A stretch of 42,177 nucleotides of DNA. It comes from Ignavibacteriales bacterium. GTDB taxonomy: Bacteria > Bacteroidota > Ignavibacteria > Ignavibacteriales > Ignavibacteriaceae. The DNA lies in the NCBI GenBank assembly GCA_012517155.1, contig JAAYVN010000074.1:1-42177 (forward strand). The letters run 5' to 3'. Below are positions 4,882-23,680 of the stretch, in pieces; within the stretch, counting starts at the first letter, position 1, and each line of letters starts with the position of its first letter. The notes beneath the pieces are model-generated. The model ran no database searches. It saw nothing but the letters and a program-made list of their open reading frames with translations, and had not been told where the DNA came from. Both the position numbers and the translations under genes were made by a program.

Positions 4882-5460
4882 TTATTTACTGCGGACAGAG
4901 AAGAAAAGATAAGTGGAAACAGCAAGTGCCCCGAGGATAATTACTGGTCGGTACAATGATGAAAAGAATGGCTCTGAAGGTCTTTCCCCTTGTGTAAAGG
5001 GGAGTGAAGTGTTCTCGAGTTTTGAAAGATCATCAAACAGCACTGTATCAGTGTGTGTTATGGAAAAATTGTTTACTCCCCTCCCATAAATATAATATCC
5101 ATCTGCTTTTAATGTGCGCGTTACGGTATAGTCCGCGAAAAGCCCATCCCGGGATAGATCTGAATAGTGGACTGAAACGTCTTCCAAAGTGTAGTTAATT
5201 TCCCGGTTTGACTCAGCGGTTTGGTTTACCGGGGCAAGAAGACTTTTGAGCTTTCCTTCAAATACATTAAGGGGGAGAGGTGTATTAATCTTAATGGTGT
5301 ATTCCCCCCCCTCTAATTTTGTTGAAAGCTGCCTTGCCGATGAGTCTATAATCTCATAAAAGATTTCCAGGTTCGATTTAGCACTTTCCCTTCCCTGCGA
5401 TAGTGCGGGTATATTGAATGCTACTAAAATAACCAGGAAAATCAGAGTCCGTCTTCTCAT
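4882..5460 (-). CDS. Unknown envelope protein with signal peptide and C-terminal membrane helix
   Basis: This encodes 192 residues. The first 22 residues form a signal peptide (MRRRTLIFLVILVAFNIPALSQ) and residues about 168-187 form one membrane helix followed by a short basic tail (VRSK). The middle is a soluble beta-rich domain with no motif I recognise. The likely topology is a periplasmic domain anchored at the C-terminus in the inner membrane. It starts only three bases after the htpX stop, so the two are almost certainly co-transcribed, and a role in envelope quality control alongside HtpX is a reasonable guess but not shown. A run of eight G in the coding strand (5304-5311) encodes Glu50-Gly-Gly-Glu53 and could be prone to slippage. 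Confidence 0.75.
   Translation of the reverse strand: MRRRTLIFLVILVAFNIPALSQGRESAKSNLEIFYEIIDSSARQLSTKLEGGEYTIKINTPLPLNVFEGKLKSLLAPVNQTAESNREINYTLEDVSVHYSDLSRDGLFADYTVTRTLKADGYYIYGRGVNNFSITHTDTVLFDDLSKLENTSLPFTQGERPSEPFFSSLYRPVIILGALAVSTYLFFSVRSK
5304..5311 (-). repeat. G8 homopolymer inside the 192-residue envelope gene
   Basis: Eight consecutive C on the plus strand (G in the coding strand) span the codons for residues 50-53. Homopolymers of this length are known to slip during replication; here the frame is intact. Confidence 0.6.
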
Positions 5461-5463
5461 CGT

Positions 5464-6300
5464 CTATATTTTCATGCCTCTTAGTCTTCTTACTCTTTCT
5501 TCAATCGGAGGATGTGTGGAAAAGAGCTTCATGAATGATCTTCCCGATAATGGATTCACGATGAACATGTGGGCAGTAGCAGGCTCTGAATGACTTACAC
5601 CCTTAATTTGGTTTGCGGTGCTTAGTTTTTCTAATGCAGAAGCAAGCCCCAATGGATTTGCCGCAAAACGCGCTCCGCTTTCGTCAGCCAGGTACTCGCG
5701 TGACCTCGATATCCCCAGCTGTATTAAGGTGGCAATTATCGGAGCAAGTATTATCATTAACAATGAGGCAATCCAATTGTCATCATCATTCCCGCCTCGC
5801 CCAAAGAAATAAGCCCACTGTGCCATTTGAACCAGAAATGATATTGTACCGACAAATGTTGCAACTACTGATCCGATTAAAATATCCTTGTTCTTTATAT
5901 GTGCAAGTTCATGAGCAAGTACACCTTCGATTTCTTCAGTATTCAGTATTCTCAAAATTCCGGTTGTAACCACAACTGCAGAGTTCTGTGCGTTCCTGCC
6001 GGTTGCAAAGGCGTTTGGGGTTGGATCGTCTACTGCATATAGCTTGGGCATTGGAAGTCCCGCTCTGACTGTTAAATTCTCTACTAATGAAAATAGCTTA
6101 GGCGCACTGTTCCTGTCCAATGGCTTGGCTCTGTACATTTTCAGCACTATTTTATCAGAAAACCAGTACGAACCAAAGTTCATTACCAGGGCTATGACGA
6201 AGGCTATCATCATGCCCCCTTGCCCGCCAAGCATGTTCCCTGCAAACAGGAAGAGAACAAACATTAAGGTCATTAAAAATACTGTTTTTATTGAGTTCAT
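5464..6300 (-). CDS. htpX: Membrane zinc metalloprotease HtpX (M48 family)
   Basis: This encodes 278 residues, the usual HtpX size. HtpX is an inner-membrane protease that helps remove misfolded membrane proteins with FtsH. Two N-terminal membrane helices (about residues 5-24 and 28-48) are followed by the zinc motif HELAH (His130, Glu131, His134), two further hydrophobic segments (about 142-165 and 176-196) and the third zinc ligand Glu202 in SREYLADESGARFA. The C-terminal part (AHMFIVNPL, FSTHPPIEERVRRL) is also typical. The ATG at 6300 has an AGGAG site six bases upstream. It lies 73 bases after the SMR exporter stop and is followed after three bases by the unknown envelope gene. Confidence 0.95.
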   Translation of the reverse strand: MNSIKTVFLMTLMFVLFLFAGNMLGGQGGMMIAFVIALVMNFGSYWFSDKIVLKMYRAKPLDRNSAPKLFSLVENLTVRAGLPMPKLYAVDDPTPNAFATGRNAQNSAVVVTTGILRILNTEEIEGVLAHELAHIKNKDILIGSVVATFVGTISFLVQMAQWAYFFGRGGNDDDNWIASLLMIILAPIIATLIQLGISRSREYLADESGARFAANPLGLASALEKLSTANQIKGVSHSEPATAHMFIVNPLSGRSFMKLFSTHPPIEERVRRLRGMKI

Positions 6301-7132: not shown

Positions 7133-8686
7133 TTATTCATTTTCAATAATTGCGTCGTAGTAAACTTTGAATGATTTGATTGATTTGAATATTGCTTCCG
7201 CAAGTTGATTTTGTCCCTCTTCGCTTTTTAGGAAAGCAGCATCCTTGGGATTGGACAGAAATCCCGCCTCTACTAGTACCGAGGGCATTGACGCCCCTAC
7301 TAGTACGTAAAATCCGGCTTGTTTCACTCCTTTGGAGGCAATATCCACCCCCTGACGAACGTGATTATCCATAATTTCTGCAAACTTTTCTGAATAGCGC
7401 ATATAAGAAGAATGTGCCATTGTTACCAGTATGAAATTTTCGTCAGTAAGTTTTTGATAACGGTCCTGATTGTCTTCAAACTTTATAACACTGTTCTCAA
7501 ACTCCGCAATTGCTATGGCTTCTTCTGTTCTTCCGGGTCGTAGAAGATATACTTCAAAACCATTCGGTCCGGTGTTCTTTTTAGGTACAGAGTTACAGTG
7601 AATTGATATGAACAGTTTTCCGTTGTTTTCATTTGCTATTTTTCCCCGTTTGTATAACTCAACAAAGTTATCGGTCGATCGTGTATAAACAACTTTTACT
7701 TCTGGCATGTTCTCTTTCAGAAGCCTGCCTATCTTTAGCGCAAGTGCAAGATTAATCTCTTTCTCTTTGATGTTGTTTACTCCAATCGCCCCCGGATCCT
7801 TACCTCCATGCCCGGGATCGAGTACAATAACATCAAAAAACCACTTGTCTTTTTCATTTTTTTCGTTTTTTGCTTTCTCGCGGAATGTTTTGTTGTGCAT
7901 TGTGACCAGAATGTCGTTCCCCGAGTTTATTACTTCATAAGTGCTTAAATTCTTGTCAATGCTTAGGGAAAGCGTGCTCTCCCCCTTCTCTGTTTCCAGG
8001 ATGATTTTTTTAATCAGTCCTTTGGGTGAATTGTGTTTTAACAATGATGGATTAATGTCTCCTTTCGGAAAGACAATTTTAATTATCCCGTTATTAATTG
8101 TATGCGTATATTTCCCGAGTTTTACCCCTCCCTTAAGTGTTAGAAGTGTTCCGTTTGCTTTTTCATCTATTACCAGGTTGAGTCCGACTTTGCTTTCGCT
8201 TTTTTCTTCCTCTTTCTCTTCGCTTTCTGTTGTCTGTTTATCCTCTTTTGTGTTCTTCGAAATCACTGATAAATCTTCTCCAAAACAACGATTTAGTAGC
8301 GAAGTTGTGTACTCAAGCGGCAAGTAAATTCCGTTCTCTTTTATCTGTGAGGATAAAGGAAGCTGTATTGTTTCCGATTTGTTGGTTTCTTTATTATAAA
8401 GTACTACAAATGGATTTTTTGCGGTTAATTTAAGAGTGTGTCCTTTGAATTTAAGTTCAATCTTGGCATTTTCAGGATTTACATAATAACCAAGTCCGTA
8501 TGCTTTAGCTAGTTCCAGAGCGGATATATAGGTTATCCCCCCTTTTTGAAATGCGGAAACCTTCCCCTCCTTTCCTCCAACGGAAAGTGCTACCTTGGAA
8601 TTCTCCGTCTGGGAATATGCTCCCCCACTAAGGACGAGAATTAAATATAACAAAATTGCAAAAAAAATGTTTTTTCTAACCGGCAT
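7133..8686 (-). CDS. N-acetylmuramoyl-L-alanine amidase (Amidase_3)
   Basis: This encodes 517 residues. It cleaves the amide between N-acetylmuramic acid and the peptide stem of peptidoglycan in the periplasm, usually during cell separation. A signal peptide (residues 1-25) is followed by a copper-amine-oxidase-N-like domain (about 30-140), a Lys/Glu-rich linker (about 143-167), an AMIN-like beta domain (about 168-265) and the catalytic Amidase_3 domain (about 285-510). Zinc ligands are His293 in LDPGHGG, Glu308 in IKEKEINLA and His363 in SIHCNS; the catalytic Glu473 is in VEAGFLSN. The length and two N-terminal beta domains are typical of larger AmiC/LytC relatives. It opens the downstream group with the cytochrome, exporter and htpX, 87 bases after deoA. 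Confidence 0.92.
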   Translation of the reverse strand: MPVRKNIFFAILLYLILVLSGGAYSQTENSKVALSVGGKEGKVSAFQKGGITYISALELAKAYGLGYYVNPENAKIELKFKGHTLKLTAKNPFVVLYNKETNKSETIQLPLSSQIKENGIYLPLEYTTSLLNRCFGEDLSVISKNTKEDKQTTESEEKEEEKSESKVGLNLVIDEKANGTLLTLKGGVKLGKYTHTINNGIIKIVFPKGDINPSLLKHNSPKGLIKKIILETEKGESTLSLSIDKNLSTYEVINSGNDILVTMHNKTFREKAKNEKNEKDKWFFDVIVLDPGHGGKDPGAIGVNNIKEKEINLALALKIGRLLKENMPEVKVVYTRSTDNFVELYKRGKIANENNGKLFISIHCNSVPKKNTGPNGFEVYLLRPGRTEEAIAIAEFENSVIKFEDNQDRYQKLTDENFILVTMAHSSYMRYSEKFAEIMDNHVRQGVDIASKGVKQAGFYVLVGASMPSVLVEAGFLSNPKDAAFLKSEEGQNQLAEAIFKSIKSFKVYYDAIIENE

Positions 8687-8773
8687 TCAAAAGTAATTTG
8701 TGATGAAATTTCTTAAAACTGAGTTATAATTTACTCTTTTTTTGCTATACACTTCAATAGAAAAGAACAGGGT

Positions 8774-10078
8774 TCAATATAGCGTTTCCTTAATTAATTC
8801 ATTTCCCCTCGGTTTTTTCCCTGAGATTTGAATTGCTTCAAGTAATCTGTTGGTAACTGGTTCAATCTTATTATGAAGATCCGTAAAGATCTCGGCAATT
8901 ACCTCCCCTTTTTTAATTTGTGTGCCTGTTTTAGGATACAAGATGATTCCGGCTTTGGGATCGATTTTATCTTCCTTTGTTAGTCGCCCTGCACCAAGCT
9001 CCAATGATGCAATCCCGATTTGATATGTATCCACTGCAGTTAGAAATCCTTTTGCCGGAGCATGTATTTTTTTATGGTATCTTGATTCTGGATATAATTC
9101 CGGTTGAAGAAGATATTTTATATCTCCCCCCTGCAGTTTTACGATTTCTAGAAATTTATCAAATGCTTTTCCGTTTTTAATAAGTTGCTTTGATATCTCT
9201 ACCCCCTCCTCAACTGAACCGGCTTTCCCGCCAAGGAAAATCATTGCACCCGAAAGTGTGAAAGTCAGTTCGCAAAGGTCTTTTACGTATTCCCCTTTCA
9301 AAACTTTTACTGTTTCATATATCTCAAGCCAGTTCCCAATGTAATTCCCAAGGGGCTGATTCATATCCGTTATAAAAGCAATCGCTTTTTTGTTAAAAGC
9401 TTTTGCGGTTTCTATTAGAGATTTTGCAAGAAGAACTGAATCTCCGTGCTTTTGCATAAAGGCACCGTTACCGGTTTTCACATCTATTACAAATCCTTCA
9501 GCTCCTTCAGCAAGTTTTTTACTCATAATACTTGCCGTTATTAGTGGAATTGACTCAACGGTTGCCGTAACATCCCTGAGGGCATAAATCAATTTGTCAG
9601 CCGGCGCTATCTCTTTTGTCTGCCCAATCATAACTCCCCCTGCCTTTGCAAGTATATGGCGGTAGCCCCTTAATCCAATGTTGGTTCTAAAGCCGGGAAT
9701 AGATTCCAGCTTATCCAACGTACCCCCCGTATGCCCCAGACCGCGCCCTGAAATCATTGGTACTTTGACCCCGGATGACGCTACAATCGGAGCAAGGATC
9801 AAAGAGGTTTTATCCCCCACCCCGCCTGTAGAGTGTTTGTCTATTTTTGCTCCCTTTATAGCTGAAAGATCTATAACTTTCCCGCTGTGAAGCATTATCT
9901 TTGTCAGCGCGGCAGTCTCTTCTTTTTTCATTCCCTTGTAGTAAATTGCCATTAATAGTGCTGACATTTGATAGTCTGGAATTTTGCTCTTTATAAAACC
10001 GTCGATTATATAATGTATTTCTTCACCGGTTAATGCGTATCCGTTTCTTTTTTTCCTTATTATTTCTACTGTGTTCAT
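8774..10078 (-). CDS. deoA: Thymidine phosphorylase
   Basis: This encodes 434 residues and matches the pyrimidine/thymidine phosphorylase family over its full length. It splits thymidine and deoxyuridine with phosphate to base plus deoxyribose-1-phosphate in nucleoside salvage. The phosphate-binding stretch KHSTGGVGDKTSL (Lys81 onwards), the SGRGLGHTGGTLDKLESIPG loop and DVKTGNGAFM are intact. Position 108 is Met (in VPMISGRG) where broader pyrimidine-nucleoside phosphorylases carry Lys, which favours the thymidine-type enzyme; this is from family knowledge and worth testing. It lies 12 bases after yraN, so it belongs to the ubiA-rnhB-yraN-deoA transcript. Confidence 0.9.
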   Translation of the reverse strand: MNTVEIIRKKRNGYALTGEEIHYIIDGFIKSKIPDYQMSALLMAIYYKGMKKEETAALTKIMLHSGKVIDLSAIKGAKIDKHSTGGVGDKTSLILAPIVASSGVKVPMISGRGLGHTGGTLDKLESIPGFRTNIGLRGYRHILAKAGGVMIGQTKEIAPADKLIYALRDVTATVESIPLITASIMSKKLAEGAEGFVIDVKTGNGAFMQKHGDSVLLAKSLIETAKAFNKKAIAFITDMNQPLGNYIGNWLEIYETVKVLKGEYVKDLCELTFTLSGAMIFLGGKAGSVEEGVEISKQLIKNGKAFDKFLEIVKLQGGDIKYLLQPELYPESRYHKKIHAPAKGFLTAVDTYQIGIASLELGAGRLTKEDKIDPKAGIILYPKTGTQIKKGEVIAEIFTDLHNKIEPVTNRLLEAIQISGKKPRGNELIKETLY

Positions 10079-10090
10079 ATTTTTTCTGTG

Positions 10091-10453
10091 TTAAATAGTT
10101 ACATTTTTGTAATGATTGATTTCCGGTAAGCCATTCACGGAAACAAACGTGATTACATCTACTCTGCATAACTGATCGGTTAGTCTGTTTACATATAAAT
10201 AAAACTCTGCCACTTTTTTGATTTTGCTTAGTTTATTCTGCTTGACTGTCTCCTCCGGAGAAACTGTGTCCTTTTTGGATTTTGATCTGACTTCCACAAA
10301 AACAAGCGTATCCTTTTCCTTCGCCACAATATCAACTTCCCCGACATTTCCGTATCGGAAGTTTCGTTTAACTATCGAATAACCGGACTTAATCAGATAA
10401 CTGACCGCCATTTCTTCATATGCATCCCCTTTTTGTTTGGTTGTTTCAGTCAT
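10091..10453 (-). CDS. yraN: YraN/UPF0102 family endonuclease-like protein
   Basis: This encodes 120 residues, the usual size for UPF0102. It has the PD-(D/E)XK-type nuclease core: GDAYEEMAVSYL, GYSIVKRNFRYGNVGEVDIVA with the acidic Glu-Val-Asp, and FVEVRSKSK in place of EVK. The family often sits next to rnhB, as here (the genes overlap by eight bases), and has been linked to Holliday-junction or RNA-DNA processing, but its exact job is not settled. The function of this copy is inferred only from family. Confidence 0.93.
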   Translation of the reverse strand: MTETTKQKGDAYEEMAVSYLIKSGYSIVKRNFRYGNVGEVDIVAKEKDTLVFVEVRSKSKKDTVSPEETVKQNKLSKIKKVAEFYLYVNRLTDQLCRVDVITFVSVNGLPEINHYKNVTI

Positions 10454-11057
10454 TCGATTTTTCTCCTTCGAGTATCCGAGTTAAGAAAGTTTTTCTGTGA
10501 TATTCGGTTATCCCGAACTTTTTAATACTTTCAATATGGTCCTTTGTCGGATATCCTTTATTCTGTTTCCACTTGTAATCAGGGTATGTGCAATCTAGTT
10601 CAAGCATGATGGAATCTCTCACAACTTTTGCAATAATTGATGCGGCGGCTATTGTTAGGGAAAGTCCATCCCCCTTGATTACTGTTTTTATCTTTGGATC
10701 GTTTTTATATGTTTTGTTACCATCAACAAGTATAAATTCCGGAGTTATTGCTAAGTTATTCACCGCCTCCTCCATTGCTCGCATGGTAGCTTGGAGTATA
10801 TTGATTTTATCTATTACCCCGTGAGAAACAACGGAATATGAATAAGCTAAAGCAATCTGCTTTATTTCTTCGGATAATTTCCCCCTCATTGAGGCGGATA
10901 ATTTTTTCGAGTCCTTTATCCTCCGGTTATTGTAATCAACCGGTAGAATGACTGCAGCCGCTACTACCGGACCAGCGAGTGGACCCCTCCCCGCTTCATC
11001 TACTCCCGCAATTAGCTTGATGCCGTTAACCCGGTATCCGTCGTCAAATTTTTTCAT
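10446..11057 (-). CDS. rnhB: Ribonuclease HII
   Basis: This encodes 203 residues. RNase HII removes misincorporated ribonucleotides and RNA from RNA-DNA hybrids. The four catalytic acids are present: Asp20 and Glu21 in GVDEAGRGPLAGPVV, Asp112 in LVDGN and Asp130 in KGDGLSLTIAAASIIAKV, together with the DSKKLS motif and the C-terminal NKGYPTKDH. The start overlaps the stop of the prenyltransferase gene by four bases (ATGA), and its end overlaps yraN by eight, so all three are translationally coupled. Confidence 0.96.
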   Translation of the reverse strand: MKKFDDGYRVNGIKLIAGVDEAGRGPLAGPVVAAAVILPVDYNNRRIKDSKKLSASMRGKLSEEIKQIALAYSYSVVSHGVIDKINILQATMRAMEEAVNNLAITPEFILVDGNKTYKNDPKIKTVIKGDGLSLTIAAASIIAKVVRDSIMLELDCTYPDYKWKQNKGYPTKDHIESIKKFGITEYHRKTFLTRILEGEKSND

Positions 11058-11899
11058 ACACCCGCATATATTGCCACTAGTCCTGCAATCATTGCAATTT
11101 TCAGGATTCCACTTATGTTTTTCATATTTCGCTTACTGTTATCGAGATAAAAAAGTTTATAAATAATAATTAAAAGTGGGTTTACTACCAACATCACAAT
11201 AATGAAATATTCGATCTTGTAAACTCCGCTTATATAAGGATAAAAAGTAAAAAGCATAAGCAAGAACAACACCCCCGTTGCAAGATTCAATGCTTTTTTG
11301 CTACCTGCAATTATCGGGAAGGTCACGATTCCAATTTTACGGTCCCCTTCAATATCCTCTATATCTTTTACTACTTCCCTGACAAAGTTGATTAATAATG
11401 CAAAAATAGCGGGAATAATTCCCCCGCCTATATTATCTGCAAGCAATCCCCCGTATATAAAAGCCATTCCCGTCATAAACGAGACAGTGAAATTCCCCGC
11501 TAAAGGTACTCGTTTGAGTTTGTATGAGTATATAAAAATTATAACCGTTGAAAATAATACAAAAATCAACGCTTCAACTCCGGCCCAGAAAGCTAAATCA
11601 AGCGAAAGAAGAACCAAAAATATATACAGAATAAAAGCCCCCCTTAGAGTTATTTGCCCGGATGGTAATATTCTGTCTGGTCGATTTATTTTATCAATTT
11701 CCAGATCATAATAATCGTTGATTACATTTCCTGCAGCACCTGCCAACCCTCCGGATAAAGCAGCTAGTATTGTTTCCGGCCGAAGGTTCCCCCCTTTTCT
11801 GCTGATCATATAAGCAACAATTACCGACATTACCGTAATTACAAAATTTAGTGGCCTGATGATTTTGTAGACCGCTAATAACTTTTTTAATAAGACCAT
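11054..11899 (-). CDS. UbiA-family prenyltransferase, DGGGP synthase-like
   Basis: This encodes 281 residues with about eight or nine membrane helices. Both Asp-rich motifs that bind the magnesium-prenyl diphosphate are present: NDYYDLEID (61-69) and DIEDIEGD (179-186). The stretch NVINDYYDLEIDKINRPDRILPSG is the form seen in geranylgeranylglyceryl-phosphate geranylgeranyltransferases, which add the second isoprenoid chain in archaeal-type ether lipids; Bacteroidota members of this clade usually carry that annotation. UbiA relatives also prenylate quinones, so MenA-like activity is a real alternative. The gene is divergent from a ferredoxin and geranylgeranyl reductase pair, which strengthens the lipid reading. 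It heads a transcript with rnhB, yraN and deoA. The 82-base region between it and the ferredoxin is A/T-rich and must hold both promoters, though no consensus boxes are clear. Confidence 0.82.
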   Translation of the reverse strand: MVLLKKLLAVYKIIRPLNFVITVMSVIVAYMISRKGGNLRPETILAALSGGLAGAAGNVINDYYDLEIDKINRPDRILPSGQITLRGAFILYIFLVLLSLDLAFWAGVEALIFVLFSTVIIFIYSYKLKRVPLAGNFTVSFMTGMAFIYGGLLADNIGGGIIPAIFALLINFVREVVKDIEDIEGDRKIGIVTFPIIAGSKKALNLATGVLFLLMLFTFYPYISGVYKIEYFIIVMLVVNPLLIIIYKLFYLDNSKRNMKNISGILKIAMIAGLVAIYAGV

Positions 11900-11981
11900 A
11901 AAATACTATATTTAAAAGCTAAAAAATAAAATGCAATATAAATTTTTTACTGACAATTATTAAATAATAAATACTGGTTTA

Positions 11982-12203
11982 ATGGAATATAAACAGGCCA
12001 AAATAGGTAAATTACTGATTGAGATAATTCCGGATAGGTGCGATTTCTGCGGGTGCTGCGTGGGTGTATGCCCTGAAGACGCAATCGAACTTAAAGAGGC
12101 GGAGATTAGAATCATCGCCGAAAATTGCACTAATTGTTCGAAATGTATTTGGTCCTGTCCGATTGAAGTTATAAAATTTAATAAAGAGGGGATCCTCGTG
12201 TAA
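11982..12203 (+). CDS. 2[4Fe-4S] ferredoxin
   Basis: This encodes 73 residues with two complete cluster motifs of the bacterial 8Fe ferredoxin type: Cys20, Cys23, Cys26, Cys30 followed by Pro31, and Cys49, Cys52, Cys55, Cys59 followed by Pro60. It is a small soluble electron carrier. It ends one base before the start of the geranylgeranyl reductase gene, so the two are co-transcribed and probably work together; a ferredoxin next to the reductase gene is known to support full double-bond reduction in Methanosarcina. Here that role is inferred from position. Confidence 0.93.
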   Translation: MEYKQAKIGKLLIEIIPDRCDFCGCCVGVCPEDAIELKEAEIRIIAENCTNCSKCIWSCPIEVIKFNKEGILV

Positions 12204-12204
12204 T

Positions 12205-13374
12205 ATGAAAAATTACTACGATATAATTGTGGTGGGTGCTGGACCCGCCGGATCAGTGGCTGCGAGATATGCCGCTCGGCATGGGGTTTCTGTTCTTTTA
12301 CTGGAGAAGGACCGCGATGTCGGCTATCCGGTTAGATGTGGTGAAGCAGTAAATAAATCCCGTATTACTGAGTTTATTGACCCCGATGAGAAGTGGATTT
12401 GTGCACATATTAATAAATTTCGCTTCGTCGCTCCGAATGATAAGGAAGTTACTCTTCAATTCAGAGAGGAAGGATATATTCTCGAGAGAAGAATATTCGA
12501 CTACCAACTTGCAAAACTTGCTTCCGAGGAAGGCGCCGAGGTTGTAACACGTGCATATGTTAACGGACTGATAATAGATGAAGACTGCGTTCGCGGTGTA
12601 AAGGCATTAATTAGAGGGGAAGAAATTAAGATAAAATCGAAAATTGTTATCGCTGCTGATGGAGTAGAGTCTCGGGTGGGACGATGGGCAGGCTTGAAAA
12701 CTCATATTGATTTCCGTGATATGGAAAGCTGCGTACAGGTTACGGCATCAAATATTAACAACATCAATCCGGACACCTGCTACTTCTATTTCGGCGAGAA
12801 TGTTGCCCCCTCAGGATATTTCTGGATTTTCCCTAAAGGAAATCATATTGCTAATATTGGTCTGGGAGTTAGCGGAATCATAGGAAAAAAGAAATCCGCA
12901 CTGAAATATTTCAATCAATTTATGGAACGAAGATACCCGGATGCTCCTTTCCTTACTTCTATAGCTGGCGGAGTCCCTTGTTCTGTTACATTAAAAAAAA
13001 TCTCTTCGAATGGTATTATCATGACGGGAGATGCGGCTCGACAGGTAAATCCTCTTACCGGTGGGGGTATTTCAAGTGGAATGATTGGCGGTAGTATTGC
13101 AGGGGATATTGCCGGACACTCAATCAAACGTAATACAACTGACTACTTATCAAAGTATCCGGAATTGTGGCATCAGCAGGTCGGGAAAAAACATGAAATT
13201 TATAACCGGATAAAAAACGGTATTTATAATTTTACTGACGATAAATTTAATAAGATTGCCGATTCTGTCCTTAAATTGCCCGACGACAAAAGAACTCTTC
13301 GCAATGTTTTTACAACTGCTTTAATCAACCAGCCCTCTCTCTTATTGGATGTGGCAAAAGTATTCATTTATTAA
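12205..13374 (+). CDS. FAD-dependent geranylgeranyl reductase family protein
   Basis: This encodes 389 residues. The family reduces double bonds in geranylgeranyl chains of archaeal lipids, chlorophyll side chains or menaquinone tails. An N-terminal Rossmann FAD site is GAGPAG (11-16); YPVRCGEAV (41-49) includes the conserved Cys45; the reductase signature GYFWIFPK (204-211) follows, and GDAARQVNPLTGGGISSGM (275-293) is the second FAD motif. The ferredoxin one base upstream is the likely electron donor. The divergent UbiA-type prenyltransferase suggests an isoprenoid lipid substrate. Bacteriochlorophyll use is unlikely because no bch gene is present; menaquinone saturation remains possible. 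Confidence 0.9.
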   Translation: MKNYYDIIVVGAGPAGSVAARYAARHGVSVLLLEKDRDVGYPVRCGEAVNKSRITEFIDPDEKWICAHINKFRFVAPNDKEVTLQFREEGYILERRIFDYQLAKLASEEGAEVVTRAYVNGLIIDEDCVRGVKALIRGEEIKIKSKIVIAADGVESRVGRWAGLKTHIDFRDMESCVQVTASNINNINPDTCYFYFGENVAPSGYFWIFPKGNHIANIGLGVSGIIGKKKSALKYFNQFMERRYPDAPFLTSIAGGVPCSVTLKKISSNGIIMTGDAARQVNPLTGGGISSGMIGGSIAGDIAGHSIKRNTTDYLSKYPELWHQQVGKKHEIYNRIKNGIYNFTDDKFNKIADSVLKLPDDKRTLRNVFTTALINQPSLLLDVAKVFIY

Positions 13375-13387
13375 AGACAAGGACCTT

Positions 13388-13870
13388 ATGAGACTATTTG
13401 GCTTTCCTTTGATTCTGTTCATATTTTTCAGTGCTTTTCTTTACTCACAAACATCCGAGAGTTCTAAAAGTCAATTGCCTCTTGCCTTTGATGAAAAGCG
13501 TGATCCATCTGTCGATTTGAAATATGCTGTTACACTGGCTAAAAAAGAAAAGAAGAATATTCTCTTGGATGTGGGTGGCGAATGGTGCATTTGGTGCAAA
13601 CGGTTGGATGAGTTTTTTGAAGCTGACACCGTATTGAATAATTTTTTACGTCAAAATTTTGTAGTTCTGAAGGTTAATTACAGCAAGGAAAATAAAAACG
13701 AAAAATTTCTTTCAAAGTACCCTAAAGTCGCTGGTTATCCTCATTTCTTTGTGTTGAACAGAAACGGCAGGTTTTTGCATAGTCAGAATACTGGTGATTT
13801 GGAAGCGGGAAAAGGTTATGACTTGGTTAAAATGATGTCCTTCTTAAAAAAATGGGCACCGAAAAAATAG
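13388..13870 (+). CDS. Secreted thioredoxin-fold protein with WCxWC motif
   Basis: This encodes 160 residues from the ATG at 13388, which has AAGGA five bases upstream; a start at 13349 would overlap the reductase gene. A signal peptide (MRLFGFPLILFIFFSAFLYSQ) sends it to the periplasm. The thioredoxin-like domain has the active site GGEWCIWCK (Cys67, Cys70) and the cis-proline region VAGYPHFFVLN, as in the Thioredoxin_7 or DsbD-gamma-like group. It probably reduces or exchanges disulfides or helps cytochrome c assembly. It lies 13 bases after the reductase gene on the same strand and converges on gpsA with a six-base gap. Confidence 0.87.
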   Translation: MRLFGFPLILFIFFSAFLYSQTSESSKSQLPLAFDEKRDPSVDLKYAVTLAKKEKKNILLDVGGEWCIWCKRLDEFFEADTVLNNFLRQNFVVLKVNYSKENKNEKFLSKYPKVAGYPHFFVLNRNGRFLHSQNTGDLEAGKGYDLVKMMSFLKKWAPKK

Positions 13871-13876
13871 CGGTAT

Positions 13877-14872
13877 TTATTCGTCCTTTAAATCGCGGGT
13901 CATAAGATCGTTTGTTGATTTTATCGGATCTTTATCTTCAAAAAGCATTTTATAAACTTCGTTGGTTATCGGAGTTTCAATTTTGTATTTCATCGCCAAC
14001 TCCCTTGCACTCCGGGCTGTTTGTACCCCTTCCGCATAGGCAGTCATGGATTTAAGAATGTCTTTTAACTTCATTCCCTGACCGATTTTCTCCCCCACAT
14101 GCCTGTTCCTGCTGTGCCTGCTCATGCATGTAACAATAAGATCCCCCATTCCGGAAAGACCTGCGAACGTCTCGTTCCTCGCTCCCATTGCAACTCCCAG
14201 CCTGGTTATCTCTGCTATGCCTCGGGTCATAATCGCAGCTTTTGTGTTATCACCAAATTTAGCTCCCTCAATTATCCCCGCCCCAATAGCTATAACATTC
14301 TTAAACGCTCCTCCAAGTTCAACACCTAAAATATCCGTGGCAGAGTAGACTCGAAAGTATGAGGTCATGAATGCGGCCTGAACTGTTTTCGCTGTTTCCT
14401 TGTCTTTGGAAGCAGCTACAACTGCAGTCGGAATTCGGAGACTCACTTCTTCAGCGTGGCTTGGGCCTGATAGGACGCTGATTTGTGATGTGTGTATATC
14501 GGCAAAAACATCTTTTAACATTCCTGACATTGTTAGGGTCGATTTGATTTCTATTCCCTTTGATACACTCACAAAAATTGAGTTCCTTACCGAACTAAAC
14601 TGGATTTTTTTTACTACATCCCTTAGGAATTGAGACGGAATTGCAAGAACAATTAGGTTTTTATCATCGGTAGCTTCTTCTAGATCGTGTGTAATATTAA
14701 TTTCGTCAGGAAGGTCAATCCCCGGAAGATATGTTTTATTCTCTCGTGTTTTGTGAATTTGTTTAGCATAGTGCCTGTCAGACTCCCACAACGTGACTGA
14801 GTGTCCATTATAATGTAGCAGTACTGCAAGAGTCGTTCCCCAGGCACCTGCCCCTATAACAGATACTTTCAC
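13877..14872 (-). CDS. gpsA: Glycerol-3-phosphate dehydrogenase [NAD(P)+]
   Basis: This encodes 331 residues, the family length. It reduces dihydroxyacetone phosphate to sn-glycerol-3-phosphate, the backbone of bacterial phospholipids. The nucleotide-binding motif is GAGAWG (7-12); SVSKGIE holds the conserved Lys105 and ELGGAFKNVIAIGAG the catalytic Lys191; the C-terminal GMGDLIVTC and GRNRHVG-like stretch (SRHSRNRHVGEKIGQG) is intact. The start overlaps the plsY stop by four bases, so the enzyme that makes glycerol-3-phosphate is coupled to the one that acylates it. Confidence 0.96.
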   Translation of the reverse strand: MKVSVIGAGAWGTTLAVLLHYNGHSVTLWESDRHYAKQIHKTRENKTYLPGIDLPDEINITHDLEEATDDKNLIVLAIPSQFLRDVVKKIQFSSVRNSIFVSVSKGIEIKSTLTMSGMLKDVFADIHTSQISVLSGPSHAEEVSLRIPTAVVAASKDKETAKTVQAAFMTSYFRVYSATDILGVELGGAFKNVIAIGAGIIEGAKFGDNTKAAIMTRGIAEITRLGVAMGARNETFAGLSGMGDLIVTCMSRHSRNRHVGEKIGQGMKLKDILKSMTAYAEGVQTARSARELAMKYKIETPITNEVYKMLFEDKDPIKSTNDLMTRDLKDE

Positions 14873-15537
14873 GACTTCGTTTTCTTCTTAAAGTTCACCT
14901 TGCTTTCACTCCCATTGATTATTCTTACAATATTCTTTCTGTGCGTATATAATACAAGCAATGAAAGGATAATCATGAAAGGCAGTAAAGTATTATACCC
15001 GGTAATATGAACGTGAAATAAATTTTCACGGATTATCATCGTCAGAGGAATTGAAAGCGCTGCAGTCATCGAACCGAGCGATACGTATCTTGATAAAAGA
15101 AGTACTATAAGAAATACACCAAGCGCAACAAGTATGTCCACGGTAACAATGGTTACTAGAATTCCAAGTCCGGTTGCAATTCCTTTACCCCCGCGGAAAT
15201 CGGCAAAAACTGACCATACATGCCCTATAACAGCAGCTGAACCTGCAATTATCTGCACCAATGTGAAATCATCAAATGGTGTTAGGTTGTTAAATGGAAA
15301 ATTACCATAATGAAGTCGCGCAATTATTACTACAGCAAGAACTCCCTTTAAAGCATCCAGAATGATTACTAACAAACCGTATTTCCATCCTAATACTCTC
15401 CACACATTCGTACCACCTGCGTTTCCACTACCATGATTACGAATGTCAATTCCGCTTACCATCTTAGAGATAAGTAAACTGGTCGGAATTGCACCTGCTA
15501 AATAGGATAATACAACTATTAGCGTTAAAAGATACAT
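14869..15537 (-). CDS. plsY: Acyl-phosphate:glycerol-3-phosphate acyltransferase
   Basis: This encodes 222 residues with about five membrane helices. PlsY puts the first acyl chain on glycerol-3-phosphate in the inner membrane using acyl phosphate. All three conserved loops are present: GSGNAGGTNVWRVLG (37-51), HVWSVFADFRGGKGIATGLG, and the C-terminal third loop near RYVSLGSM. Together with gpsA it shows that a normal bacterial ester-lipid route is present. It lies 70 bases after ispD. Confidence 0.95.
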   Translation of the reverse strand: MYLLTLIVVLSYLAGAIPTSLLISKMVSGIDIRNHGSGNAGGTNVWRVLGWKYGLLVIILDALKGVLAVVIIARLHYGNFPFNNLTPFDDFTLVQIIAGSAAVIGHVWSVFADFRGGKGIATGLGILVTIVTVDILVALGVFLIVLLLSRYVSLGSMTAALSIPLTMIIRENLFHVHITGYNTLLPFMIILSLLVLYTHRKNIVRIINGSESKVNFKKKTKS

Positions 15538-15607: not shown

Positions 15608-16306
15608 CTACCTGTCATTTCGACCTCTTCGCCCCAGTATTATCTCCTTCATTAATGTAATGTCCTCTGATGTGGTAATTTTGAAGTTTAACGGCGATCC
15701 CTCCACGAAGTTTATCTCATAGCCCGAATTATATACCAACATTGATTCATCCGTGGCAATAAAACCACTATCCCCTAAAAACCGAAATGCTTCATTGATG
15801 ATTTCATACCTGAAGATTTGTGGCGTTTGAATACTCAGTAAATGCTTCCTTTCCGGATATTCAAGAAAACTGTTTGTTGCCTTTATTATGGTGTCCCTGA
15901 CTCCGGTTGCTACTACAGCGGTCCCTTTTTCCTTGGCGGTTTTCAGCGCCTTTTTTAGTATCTCCGGAGGAAGAAGCGGTCTTACTGAATCATGAACAAT
16001 AATAAGGTCTCCATTCTTCATTGATAAACTTCTTAGGGCATTATGTACTGAATGTTGCCTTTCCTTTCCTCCGGATACAACTTTTATTGGTTTGCTGAAT
16101 CCATATTTTTGAGCAAGTTTTGCTGGTATGTTTTTGTACTCCTCGCTTACCGCTACTACTATTTCGTTCACTTGTGAACATTTGTTGAAAATTCCAAGTG
16201 TATAAGCCAGAATTTCCACACCGGCAACTTTACGGTATTGCTTTGGTAATGTACCGCCGATTCTTGTCCCGCTTCCGCCTGCCGGAATTATTACAGCTGT
16301 TTTCAT
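15608..16306 (-). CDS. ispD: 2-C-methyl-D-erythritol 4-phosphate cytidylyltransferase
   Basis: This encodes 232 residues. IspD attaches CMP to methylerythritol phosphate, the third step of the MEP route to isoprenoids. The nucleotide-binding start is IIPAGGSGTRIGGTLPKQYRKVAG, followed by GGKERQHSVHNAL and VHDSVRPLLPPEIL, then IQTPQIFRYEII and TDESMLV, all family signatures. This tells us the isoprenoid chains used by the neighbouring prenyltransferase would come from the MEP pathway. It lies 12 bases after queA. Confidence 0.95.
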   Translation of the reverse strand: MKTAVIIPAGGSGTRIGGTLPKQYRKVAGVEILAYTLGIFNKCSQVNEIVVAVSEEYKNIPAKLAQKYGFSKPIKVVSGGKERQHSVHNALRSLSMKNGDLIIVHDSVRPLLPPEILKKALKTAKEKGTAVVATGVRDTIIKATNSFLEYPERKHLLSIQTPQIFRYEIINEAFRFLGDSGFIATDESMLVYNSGYEINFVEGSPLNFKITTSEDITLMKEIILGRRGRNDR

Positions 16307-20188: not shown

Positions 20189-21280
20189 TTATGTTGATTT
20201 ATTTCGTAACTGCAAATTGTTCTTAACTTCAGTTACTCGGTTTAATATTATATTATTTATTTCTTTTTCATTATCAAATCTGATTTCTATCTTTAGATAA
20301 AAAATATCGATATCATCCAGTTCCTTTAAATAGGAAAATAATCTTACCGCGTCTTTTTGTGTGGTTATCACAGAGTGCACATTCAATGCATAAAATTCTT
20401 TCCTGATCCTTTTAATATCATCCTCAGTATAAAACTTGTGATCCCTTAACACTATATGGTTTGCTGTTTCAATGTTTATCTTCTTAAGTGCATTAATAAA
20501 GGAATATGGATTTGCAATTCCACTCACTACCAGACTTTTTTGTCCCACGAATTCTTCTGGTTTGTAATGAAGATTGCTTTTCAGGTCCACAAACCCAACT
20601 GTTTCATAGTAACCATTAAAAACTTTTTTCCCCTGAAAGTGCCTTGTTGTGCTTTCACCAATTTGAGCTATCTCCGAAAATTTTCTGTTTATCACAATAA
20701 CGTCCCCCCTCTTCACTGACTCAATCGGTTCCCGCATGTTCCCCGTAGGTAACATCATCCTTCTGTAACGATTTGATGTTATTAAATGCCTCTGCTCAAA
20801 AATCACTACGTCAAGATCACGATTGATCCATCTGTGTTGAAACGCATCATCAAGTATTATCACATCAATCTCTGTTTCTTTTAATAAACGCTTGGCACCA
20901 TAAACTCTGTTCTCTGAAACTGCCGCTGGTATACGGCATTCAACCACACATTGAAAAATTTCATCCCCGCTCTTCTCTACGCTTGTAAGAATTTCTCCCT
21001 TTTTTGATACCAACAGATATCCCTTTGATTTCCTTCCATATCCCCGGCTAAGTATCGCCGGTCGGTATCCCTTTGATTTTAATAGTTCTGCTATATAAAT
21101 AGTCAAAGGTGTTTTTCCTGAGCCCCCAACTGTCAAATTTCCTACTGAAATAATCGGAACGGATACTCGCTTCGCTTTAAATACTCCCTTGTCAAACAGA
21201 AAATTTCTGAACCTTATGATCAATTCATAAATCGGTGTTAATGGTATCAATACTATCCTGATCAGATCAAGAAATTTCAT
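20189..21280 (-). CDS. lpxK: Tetraacyldisaccharide 4'-kinase
   Basis: This encodes 363 residues. LpxK phosphorylates the 4' position of the lipid A disaccharide at the inner membrane. An N-terminal hydrophobic segment is followed by the Walker A site [13 protein letters not shown] (GGSGKT at 52-57), then [23 protein letters not shown] and [21 protein letters not shown], all family hallmarks. Its start overlaps the DUF374 gene by four bases, placing it in an lpxB-DUF374-lpxK unit. Confidence 0.96.
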
Positions 21281-21939
21281 GCGGCAAATACTCCGGCATT
21301 TCTTTGCATCGTTCTCAATTTCTCACCGCATTCAGCAATAACAGACGACGTTTCTTCGTAGCTCGCATCTTTATTGATCATAATCGGTTCCGAATATATG
21401 AGCCTGACTTCAGAAAAAGGCTTCGGTATTTCAAACTCATCCCAGCTCTTGAGCACATATTTACTTTTATAACCTACCCCTAATAGAATCAACGGTACTC
21501 CGCTTTTTTTCGCCGAGACTACCGCTCCTGCTTTTAACTCTTGTCTCGGTCCTCTTGGTCCGTCAGGTGTGATACATACACATCCTTCAAATTTTGCGTA
21601 ATCCACCATTACCCCCAAGGATACTTCTCCCCCTTGAGAACTTGATCCTCGCGTTACTTTGTAATTCCACCTCTTAAGGATTCTTGCAAGTATCTCACCA
21701 TCTTTGCTTTGACTGATTATCCCAAGCATCCTCATATTCCTGTGCATATACCATGGAATTAGCATCGTACCGTGCCAAAAAGCTAAAATGAAATTTTCAC
21801 CCCTGTTCCTTAGTTCTCTTATACTCTCCTCGTTTTTTGCTTCCACCTTGTATGTTTTGCACAACAGATTAATCATTGTATAAAGAAGATGATTCCCTAA
21901 AAATCTCAGAACTCCGGATTTAAATTTCTTCAAATTCAT
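21277..21939 (-). CDS. DUF374 lysophospholipid acyltransferase-like protein
   Basis: This encodes 220 residues of the DUF374 branch of the lysophospholipid acyltransferase superfamily. Diagnostic stretches are ILAFWHGTMLIPWY (the catalytic-His region), SQSKDGEILARILKRW, VTRGSSSQGG and ITPDGPRGPRQELKAGAV. It has only one short N-terminal hydrophobic region, so it is probably a peripheral inner-membrane enzyme. Sitting between lpxB and lpxK with four-base overlaps on both sides, it is a good candidate for an acyl transfer to a lipid A precursor, in place of LpxL/LpxM. The acyl acceptor is not shown. Confidence 0.88.
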   Translation of the reverse strand: MNLKKFKSGVLRFLGNHLLYTMINLLCKTYKVEAKNEESIRELRNRGENFILAFWHGTMLIPWYMHRNMRMLGIISQSKDGEILARILKRWNYKVTRGSSSQGGEVSLGVMVDYAKFEGCVCITPDGPRGPRQELKAGAVVSAKKSGVPLILLGVGYKSKYVLKSWDEFEIPKPFSEVRLIYSEPIMINKDASYEETSSVIAECGEKLRTMQRNAGVFAA

Positions 21940-23077: not shown

Positions 23078-23680
23078 TTAAAAAGACAATCTTCTTAAAA
23101 TGTGAATTAGCACAATGGTGATGATTACTATCGTAATGGCTTGCAGTGTTCTTCTTTCAGATTTTAATGCCTCTTTTATTTCCTGCTCTGGTTGACGCAG
23201 ATTTTTATTTTGATATTTTGTCAGCCTCGGAATGAATCTGGGAACATTTTTATAGTACTCCTCATATTCTTTTCCGAATTCTTTTTTCAGGTACTCTTCT
23301 TCTTCTTTTACTATCATATAATACTGGAATACAAAATAGATTAACCCGAATATCTGGAAGTAAGGGAAAATAGCAAACGACATAACCCCTGCTCCGGTAT
23401 AGATCAGTATGTTCCCCACATAAAGAGGATTTCGCACATATCCAAATGGCCCACTGATAACTAGATTAGTCCCTCCGACTTTCCCTGTTGTCCTCGTCTC
23501 GCTCCCCGCATAACTCACTCCCCAGAATCTGATAAACTCTCCTGTCAATATCAGTATAAACCCGGTAACTAAACTCCAAATGTTTGAATCCTGAAATACT
23601 AGCATTAAAATTACAAACGGTATAGGAGTATAACTTCTGTTTGTAAATAGAAATTTTGTGAGTCCTGATTTTTGTTCCAT
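23078..23680 (-). CDS. ICMT/PEMT-like membrane methyltransferase
   Basis: This encodes 200 residues with about five membrane helices, including a helix beyond the core near the C-terminus (residues 178-195). The S-adenosylmethionine-binding region GPFGYVRNPLYVGNILIYTG and the C-terminal EEEYLKKEFGKEYEEYYKNVPRFIPRL match the isoprenylcysteine carboxyl methyltransferase / phospholipid methyltransferase group. Bacterial members have varied and often unknown substrates. It lies 20 bases upstream of lpxB in the same direction, so a membrane-lipid substrate is a fair inference but not proven. Confidence 0.85.
   Translation of the reverse strand: MEQKSGLTKFLFTNRSYTPIPFVILMLVFQDSNIWSLVTGFILILTGEFIRFWGVSYAGSETRTTGKVGGTNLVISGPFGYVRNPLYVGNILIYTGAGVMSFAIFPYFQIFGLIYFVFQYYMIVKEEEEYLKKEFGKEYEEYYKNVPRFIPRLTKYQNKNLRQPEQEIKEALKSERRTLQAITIVIITIVLIHILRRLSF

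Follow-up and report, generated by a model that had tools for sequence, protein, structure and literature searches.

The window analysed here is the entire contig JAAYVN010000074.1 (42177 bases) of an Ignavibacteriales bacterium, whose 3.29 Mb genome is 99.65% complete. It carries neighbouring genes for a UbiA-family prenyltransferase resembling digeranylgeranylglyceryl phosphate (DGGGP) synthase, a ferredoxin, and a geranylgeranyl reductase (GGR). Judged from their sequences, these genes probably make up the later half of a pathway for archaeal-type ether lipids, whose product would be a di-isoprenoid glycerol ether phospholipid with saturated chains, made alongside the ester-lipid and lipid A routes. 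The evidence lies in the genes themselves, their families and motifs, the predicted fold of UbiA, a separate menA gene in the genome, and the co-inheritance of UbiA, GGR, and the geranylgeranylglyceryl phosphate (GGGP) synthase PcrB within the class Ignavibacteria.

The UbiA–ferredoxin–GGR locus

An earlier, sequence-only reading of this DNA had placed the UbiA, ferredoxin, and GGR genes at 11054-13374. The open reading frames, the spacings of 82 bases and 1 base, and the Pfam families all bear out this arrangement, as follows.

11054..11899, minus strand: DGGGP-synthase-like UbiA prenyltransferase, predicted to add the second ether-linked chain; 281 residues; Pfam UbiA, 3e-43
11900..11981, no strand: A+T-rich divergent intergenic region of 82 bases between the UbiA and ferredoxin genes
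11982..12203, plus strand: 2[4Fe-4S] ferredoxin, proposed dedicated electron donor of GGR; 73 residues; Fer4, 6.7e-11, in two stretches
12205..13374, plus strand: GGR of the digeranylgeranylglycerophospholipid (DGGGPL) reductase type; 389 residues; GGR_cat, 3.6e-27

The ferredoxin and GGR genes are thus one base apart, and the UbiA gene is divergent from this pair across the 82-base region.

The UbiA protein resembles DGGGP synthase

The best PDB sequence match of the window UbiA is the DGGGP synthase 6m31 (2.9e-37, aligned residues 2-280), with chlorophyll synthase at 2.5e-12. The AlphaFold model of the protein has a pLDDT of 91.5, and Foldseek, ranked by E-value, places 6m31 first (E 7.9e-15, TM 0.75, 34% identity in the structural alignment) and 7bpu, also a DGGGP synthase, second. 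We take both entries to be the enzyme of M. jannaschii. The residues of the Asp-rich motifs—N61, D62, D65, D69, D179, D182, and D186—are invariant among 15 aligned sequences.

The sequence-only reading had suggested placing the protein in a tree with DGGGP synthases and MenA. In our quick IQ-TREE search with 93 rows, 79 DGGGP-synthase-like rows (including the window UbiA, 6m31, and 24 archaeal rows) lie on one side with an SH-aLRT of 94, and the 11 MenA rows cluster together, apart from this group, with an SH-aLRT of 100. The window protein accordingly groups with the archaeal DGGGP synthases and not with MenA. Of the 79 rows, 77 had been retrieved as relatives of this family, so the tree chiefly shows the separation from MenA and the nearness to the archaeal enzymes. 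It leaves out three of the 80 fetched loci, in which the UbiA piece is shorter than 200 residues, and one of the 12 MenA loci. ChlG, DPPR, and AfUbiA are each represented by one row, on a very long branch. The window UbiA shares its fold with the M. jannaschii enzyme and, unlike it, belongs to the bacterial rows of the DGGGP-synthase-like group. By predicted UbiA fold, Asp-rich motifs, and tree grouping, the protein is a probable DGGGP synthase, with a predicted transfer from geranylgeranyl diphosphate (GGPP) to GGGP.

The reductase and its ferredoxin

GGR is the only match of a GGR_cat profile search in the whole genome. It scores 237.3 bits with the subfamily-level model TIGR02032, over the cut-off of 158.8, and its model scores fall from 263 bits for DGGGPL reductase to 133 for BchP/ChlP and 88 for MenJ. 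The best PDB match is the DGGGPL reductase 3oz2 (9.5e-67). The protein carries an FAD domain and a GGR catalytic domain, in which the residues of PxxYxWxFP and RxxFD and the cysteine C45 are invariant among 19 aligned sequences; the LxGD motif reads MTGD. C45 aligns with the cysteine of the CG pair in PDB entries 4opl/3atq, presumably the enzyme of S. acidocaldarius. The motifs and the essential cysteine are those given in PMC10821996. By domains, motifs, and family cut-off, the protein is classed as a GGR of the DGGGPL reductase type.

The ferredoxin gene is a constant partner of this reductase. We examined the 30 best-scoring GGR loci of the class, out of 52 genomes in which GGR was matched, and all 30 have a ferredoxin gene on the same strand, upstream of the reductase. 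The distance between the aligned ends is at most 220 bases in 28 loci, and 538 and 922 bases in the other two, which leaves room for an intervening gene.

A chlorophyll role for UbiA or GGR was also considered and rejected, as the ChlG (86 bits) and BchP/ChlP (133 bits) models score far lower; the chlorophyll genes themselves were not searched for.

The remaining pathway genes

A search for GGGP synthase, which the sequence-only reading had advised, found a PcrB-family protein on a different contig. It exceeds the curated cut-off of the GGGP equivalog TIGR01769 (204.8 bits over 161.55) and that of PRK04169.1-2 (300.3 over 247), and in the PDB it is closest to the GGGP synthase 4jej. The genome encodes three UbiA-family proteins: the window UbiA, MenA, and one of the decaprenyl-phosphate phosphoribosyltransferase type. 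The menA gene is flanked by menB and menE within a menH-menB-menA-menE cluster.

Two polyprenyl synthases were found in the genome as candidates for GGPP supply. A Phe stands five residues ahead of the DDIMD motif in one of them, and an Ala precedes DDVVD in the other; by the rule that links this residue to chain length, the two would make short and long chains. An FMN_dh-family gene (L210 362-1408, plus strand) overlaps the start of one polyprenyl synthase gene (L210 1402-2394, plus strand). We take it to resemble the type 2 isopentenyl diphosphate isomerase.

Co-inheritance across the class

We counted the genes in 119 genomes of the class, with presence thresholds of E 1e-40 for GGR, 1e-5 for PcrB, 1e-30 for UbiA, and 1e-20 for MenA and MenG; weaker copies escape these counts, such as the UbiA match of G035 at 3.5e-17. 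GGR is present in 52 genomes, PcrB in 53, and the DGGGP-synthase-like UbiA in 52. All three occur together in 48 genomes, any of them in 55, and none in 64. The pairwise co-occurrence has Fisher p values of 1.5e-28 to 2.7e-27, uncorrected for kinship. A phylum-wide UbiA search matched 226 of 395 genomes at 1e-10; it mixes paralogues and was not used in the counts.

Kinship was addressed with independent pairs (starred branches) on a tree of the single gene MenG, which covers 111 of the 119 genomes; five without a match and three with partial matches (G398, G406, and G442) are left out. The analysis yields 7 or 8 such pairs, and 7 in which UbiA presence differs. On average, PcrB follows UbiA in 5.6 of them and GGR in 5.8, and neither goes in the opposite direction in any. 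The median p is 0.03, with a range of 0.03-0.25 for PcrB and 0.03-0.125 for GGR.

Among the 50 genomes with both genes of a pair, UbiA and GGR are on the same contig in 13, and no more than 1 kb separates them in four; UbiA and PcrB share a contig in five (minimum distance 13.9 kb), and GGR and PcrB in six (minimum distance 22.5 kb). Many assemblies are fragmented, and these figures are lower bounds. As the genes are seldom adjacent, linkage alone does not account for their co-occurrence. In five genomes of families f4 and f10 (G004, G093, G120, G224, and G240), the distance between UbiA and GGR is 9 to 10.5 kb, suggestive of a linkage that is older and looser.

Do the genes serve menaquinone instead?

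We regard it as improbable that UbiA prenylates a menaquinone precursor and that the ferredoxin-GGR pair saturates the menaquinone tail, the alternative named in the sequence-only reading. A GGR paralogue of A. fulgidus does reduce menaquinone tails (PMC10821996), and the NCBIfam model of the menaquinone reductase MenJ matches the window GGR, weakly, at 88 of 700 bits. The genome, however, has its own menA between menB and menE.

The distribution of the genes across the class bears on the same question. The menA gene is present in 68 of the 119 genomes and the quinone methyltransferase (MenG/UbiE) in 114. UbiA is somewhat commoner with menA (35/68) than without it (17/51), but the association is not significant (Fisher p 0.06), nor is that of GGR (p 0.14); the independent pairs give median p values of 0.5 and 1, respectively, and MenA goes the same way as UbiA in 1.9 pairs and the other way in 0.2. 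In 17 genomes UbiA is present with no match to TIGR00751, and 15 of these keep the quinone methyltransferase, a point in favour of the quinone role. The methyltransferase is nevertheless near universal with or without GGR (49 of the 52 genomes bearing GGR and 65 of the 67 lacking it), so that quinones do not need the module.

A menaquinone role for either enzyme is therefore unsupported when tested against menA and the methyltransferase: the three genes track each other, they have no significant association with menA, and the genome has a separate menA. The reading of UbiA as a DGGGP synthase is supported, as the protein does not group with MenA in the quick tree, menA is present elsewhere, and a GGGP synthase was found.

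A proposed pathway

How could the cell build the ether lipid? First, the GGGP synthase encoded on another contig would join the first C20 isoprenoid chain, from GGPP, to glycerol phosphate, forming GGGP. Second, the window UbiA would add a second GGPP, forming DGGGP. Then, GGR would saturate the chains with electrons from the ferredoxin encoded just upstream. Finally, as no CDP-archaeol synthase (CarS) was found, bacterial CDP-diglyceride and head-group enzymes, whose genes were not searched for, may finish the lipid. These steps are proposed because of the enzyme families, and the substrate, chain length, saturation, and head group of the lipid, as well as its presence in the membrane, are predictions of the same kind.

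Several observations weigh against this pathway. Among the best 25 of 26 models, the window UbiA clears no curated equivalog cut-off, those of DGGGP synthase included: its top NCBIfam model, the prenyltransferase PRK12884, gives 217.1 bits with a cut-off of 269, and the two GGGP geranylgeranyltransferase models give 199.1 of 296 bits (PRK12882) and 157.7 of 353 bits. By TM-score alone, the A. pernix UbiA homologue 4od4 fits the UbiA model equally well as 6m31. Among the best 25 of 88 models, GGR clears only the subfamily cut-off and misses the equivalogs of single archaeal groups (e.g., 262.9 of 780 bits). One or two genes are missing in seven of the 55 genomes with any of them: GGR in G066 and G427, PcrB in G422 and G436, and UbiA in G441 and G447, while G251 has only a weak PcrB fragment. 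The open-licence literature, covered mostly as titles and the starts of abstracts, yielded no report of isoprenoid ether lipids in Ignavibacteria (nor, as a separate matter, of the ferredoxin-GGR pair). Moreover, glycerol-1-phosphate (G1P) dehydrogenase (EgsA/AraM) and CarS, which the sequence-only reading had listed as genes to look for, were both not found in the genome. The two PF13685 matches are other enzymes: one is a glycerol dehydrogenase (469.6 bits over a cut-off of 336, with only 113.2 of 413 bits for the G1P dehydrogenase model), and the other is AroB (338.9 over 305). The CarS family PF01864 has zero matches in the genome, and matches seven of 14 control genomes, five of them over the cut-off.

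That neither of these two enzymes was found would suit an ether lipid that is minor or partial (a mono-ether, a glycolipid, or an ether-ester hybrid) and not an archaeol-type phospholipid present in bulk in the membrane, and Bacillales do attach one C35 chain to glycerol phosphate by an ether bond (PMC9179154). We consider this unlikely, since the co-inheritance of DGGGP synthase with GGGP synthase argues for two chains, and since a bacterial CDP-diacylglycerol synthase can replace CarS in E. coli, as reported in PMC7852524. It is highly improbable that the enzymes run backwards and degrade archaeal lipids from the surroundings, one possibility raised in PMC6431249. That no G1P dehydrogenase was found in the genome would agree with degradation, but the conserved ferredoxin-reductase pair fits saturation, and the Cloacimonetes homologues catalyse synthesis when expressed in E. 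coli (PMC7852524).

For the organism of the window, we infer that the ether lipid pathway may give a mixed membrane. More tentatively, it is possible that the membranes of many Ignavibacteria and their kin are truly mixed and contain archaeol-type phospholipids with saturated chains, the products of GGGP synthase, DGGGP synthase, and a ferredoxin-GGR pair dedicated to this task. As no G1P dehydrogenase was found, the backbone could even be glycerol-3-phosphate (G3P), the mirror image of archaeal archaeol.

Comparison with known systems

An archaeal-type ether lipid pathway has been proposed for Candidatus (Ca.) Cloacimonetes and other bacteria of the Fibrobacteres–Chlorobi–Bacteroidetes (FCB) group by Villanueva et al. 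(PMC7852524). PMC6431249 reports GGGP and DGGGP synthases in all 12 FCB phyla surveyed, with Ignavibacteria listed. The first two steps have been demonstrated for the Cloacimonetes homologues, by an enzyme assay of GGGP synthase and by co-expression in E. coli (PMC7852524). That study likewise found neither G1P dehydrogenase nor CarS in metagenome-assembled genomes (MAGs) of Ca. Cloacimonetes; in contrast, PMC6431249 names Fibrobacteres and Cloacimonetes as FCB phyla with G1P dehydrogenase orthologues. A lipidome paper, PMC10667739, names both Ignavibacteria and archaeol, and in its available text ties Ignavibacteria only to ceramides.

Our genome resembles Ca. Cloacimonetes in having GGGP synthase, DGGGP synthase, and GGR alongside bacterial ester-lipid genes, with neither G1P dehydrogenase nor CarS detected. 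The gene order differs. In Ca. Cloacimonetes the GGGP synthase gene is close to that of DGGGP synthase, while in our genome the latter has ferredoxin-GGR and rnhB as neighbours, and GGGP synthase is encoded on a different contig. Our analysis also differs from PMC7852524 in counting the co-inheritance of the three enzymes within one class, and in the ferredoxin-GGR pair; the main text of that paper contains the word "ferredoxin" once, in a reference title. Methanosarcina acetivorans likewise has GGR and ferredoxin genes in one locus, and there the ferredoxin is needed for the reduction (PMC10821996). The present case differs in its bacterial host and in the ferredoxin upstream in 30 of 30 loci, and a ferredoxin requirement is predicted here.

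Related clusters occur in other bacteria. A contig titled Candidatus Poribacteria (L148) holds DGGGP synthase, ferredoxin, GGR, and GGGP synthase genes inside about 4 kb. This cluster lies between HrcA and a group of Omp85, OmpH, and LpxD genes, which indicates that the contig is bacterial. Its GGR frame (7753-9027, plus strand) is broken once, by an assembly error or as a decayed gene, and a second UbiA-family protein (4956-5918, plus strand) is encoded directly upstream of the DGGGP synthase gene. In the Cloacimonetes contigs L154 and L192, UbiA adjoins PcrB. According to PMC7852524, bacterial co-localisation of the GGGP and DGGGP synthase genes seems confined to Ca. Cloacimonetes.

Surroundings of the locus

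The other lipid genes and the neighbour of UbiA are as follows.

10446..11057, minus strand: rnhB (ribonuclease HII), neighbour of UbiA, thought to lie outside the pathway; NF000594, 258 bits, cut-off 243
13877..14872, minus strand: gpsA, G3P supply for ester lipids; NF000942, 440 bits, cut-off 257
14869..15537, minus strand: plsY, first ester-lipid acyltransferase; TIGR00023, 172.5 bits, cut-off 137
15608..16306, minus strand: ispD, isoprenoid supply by the methylerythritol phosphate (MEP) route; TIGR00453, 206 bits, cut-off 181

Together with lpxK and lpxB, which are also over their curated cut-offs, the last three confirm the genes that had been read from the sequence in this window.

The UbiA and rnhB genes have 4 bases in common (11054-11057). 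Of the 30 best loci in the phylum search, rnhB adjoins UbiA in 29—in L030 the contig ends just past UbiA—and the divergent ferredoxin-GGR pair stands next to UbiA in six, the window's own counted. A MAG named Melioribacter roseus (L141) has the same arrangement as the window. Given this recurrence, both neighbourhoods exceed chance, and we know of no function shared by UbiA and rnhB. The labels of the named closest relatives of the UbiA gene are mostly Ignavibacteria, Ignavibacteriales, and Melioribacteraceae, with some Bacteroidetes. Contamination by archaeal DNA was rejected: UbiA overlaps rnhB, the GC content of 39% in the window compares with 36-41% in the module genes, and the UbiA-rnhB neighbourhood recurs in relatives.

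Three further genes of the window were noted. A 173-residue thioredoxin-like protein (13349-13870, plus strand; Thioredoxin_7, 3.1e-12), whose open reading frame shares 26 bases with the end of GGR, has zero NCBIfam matches at 1e-15. A membrane methyltransferase of the PEMT/ICMT type (23078-23680, minus strand) adjoins lpxB and could methylate lipid A or a phospholipid; its nearest NCBIfam model, the Leptospira lipid A Kdo2 1-phosphate O-methyltransferase LmtA, gives 77.8 of 325 bits, far under the cut-off. The DUF374 protein between lpxK and lpxB (21277-21939, minus strand) is possibly a lipid A acyltransferase.

Significance

Does any living bacterium have a membrane that mixes archaeal and bacterial lipids? 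This open question bears on the lipid divide and on the nature of early membranes. This kind of pathway has already been proposed for FCB bacteria, and the Ignavibacteria case is well supported as a further instance. A real ether lipid function becomes more likely on three counts: the enzymes are co-inherited across the class, the ferredoxin is conserved, and the module shows no significant association with quinone genes. By the same evidence, Melioribacteraceae are candidate organisms in which such ether lipids may be found.

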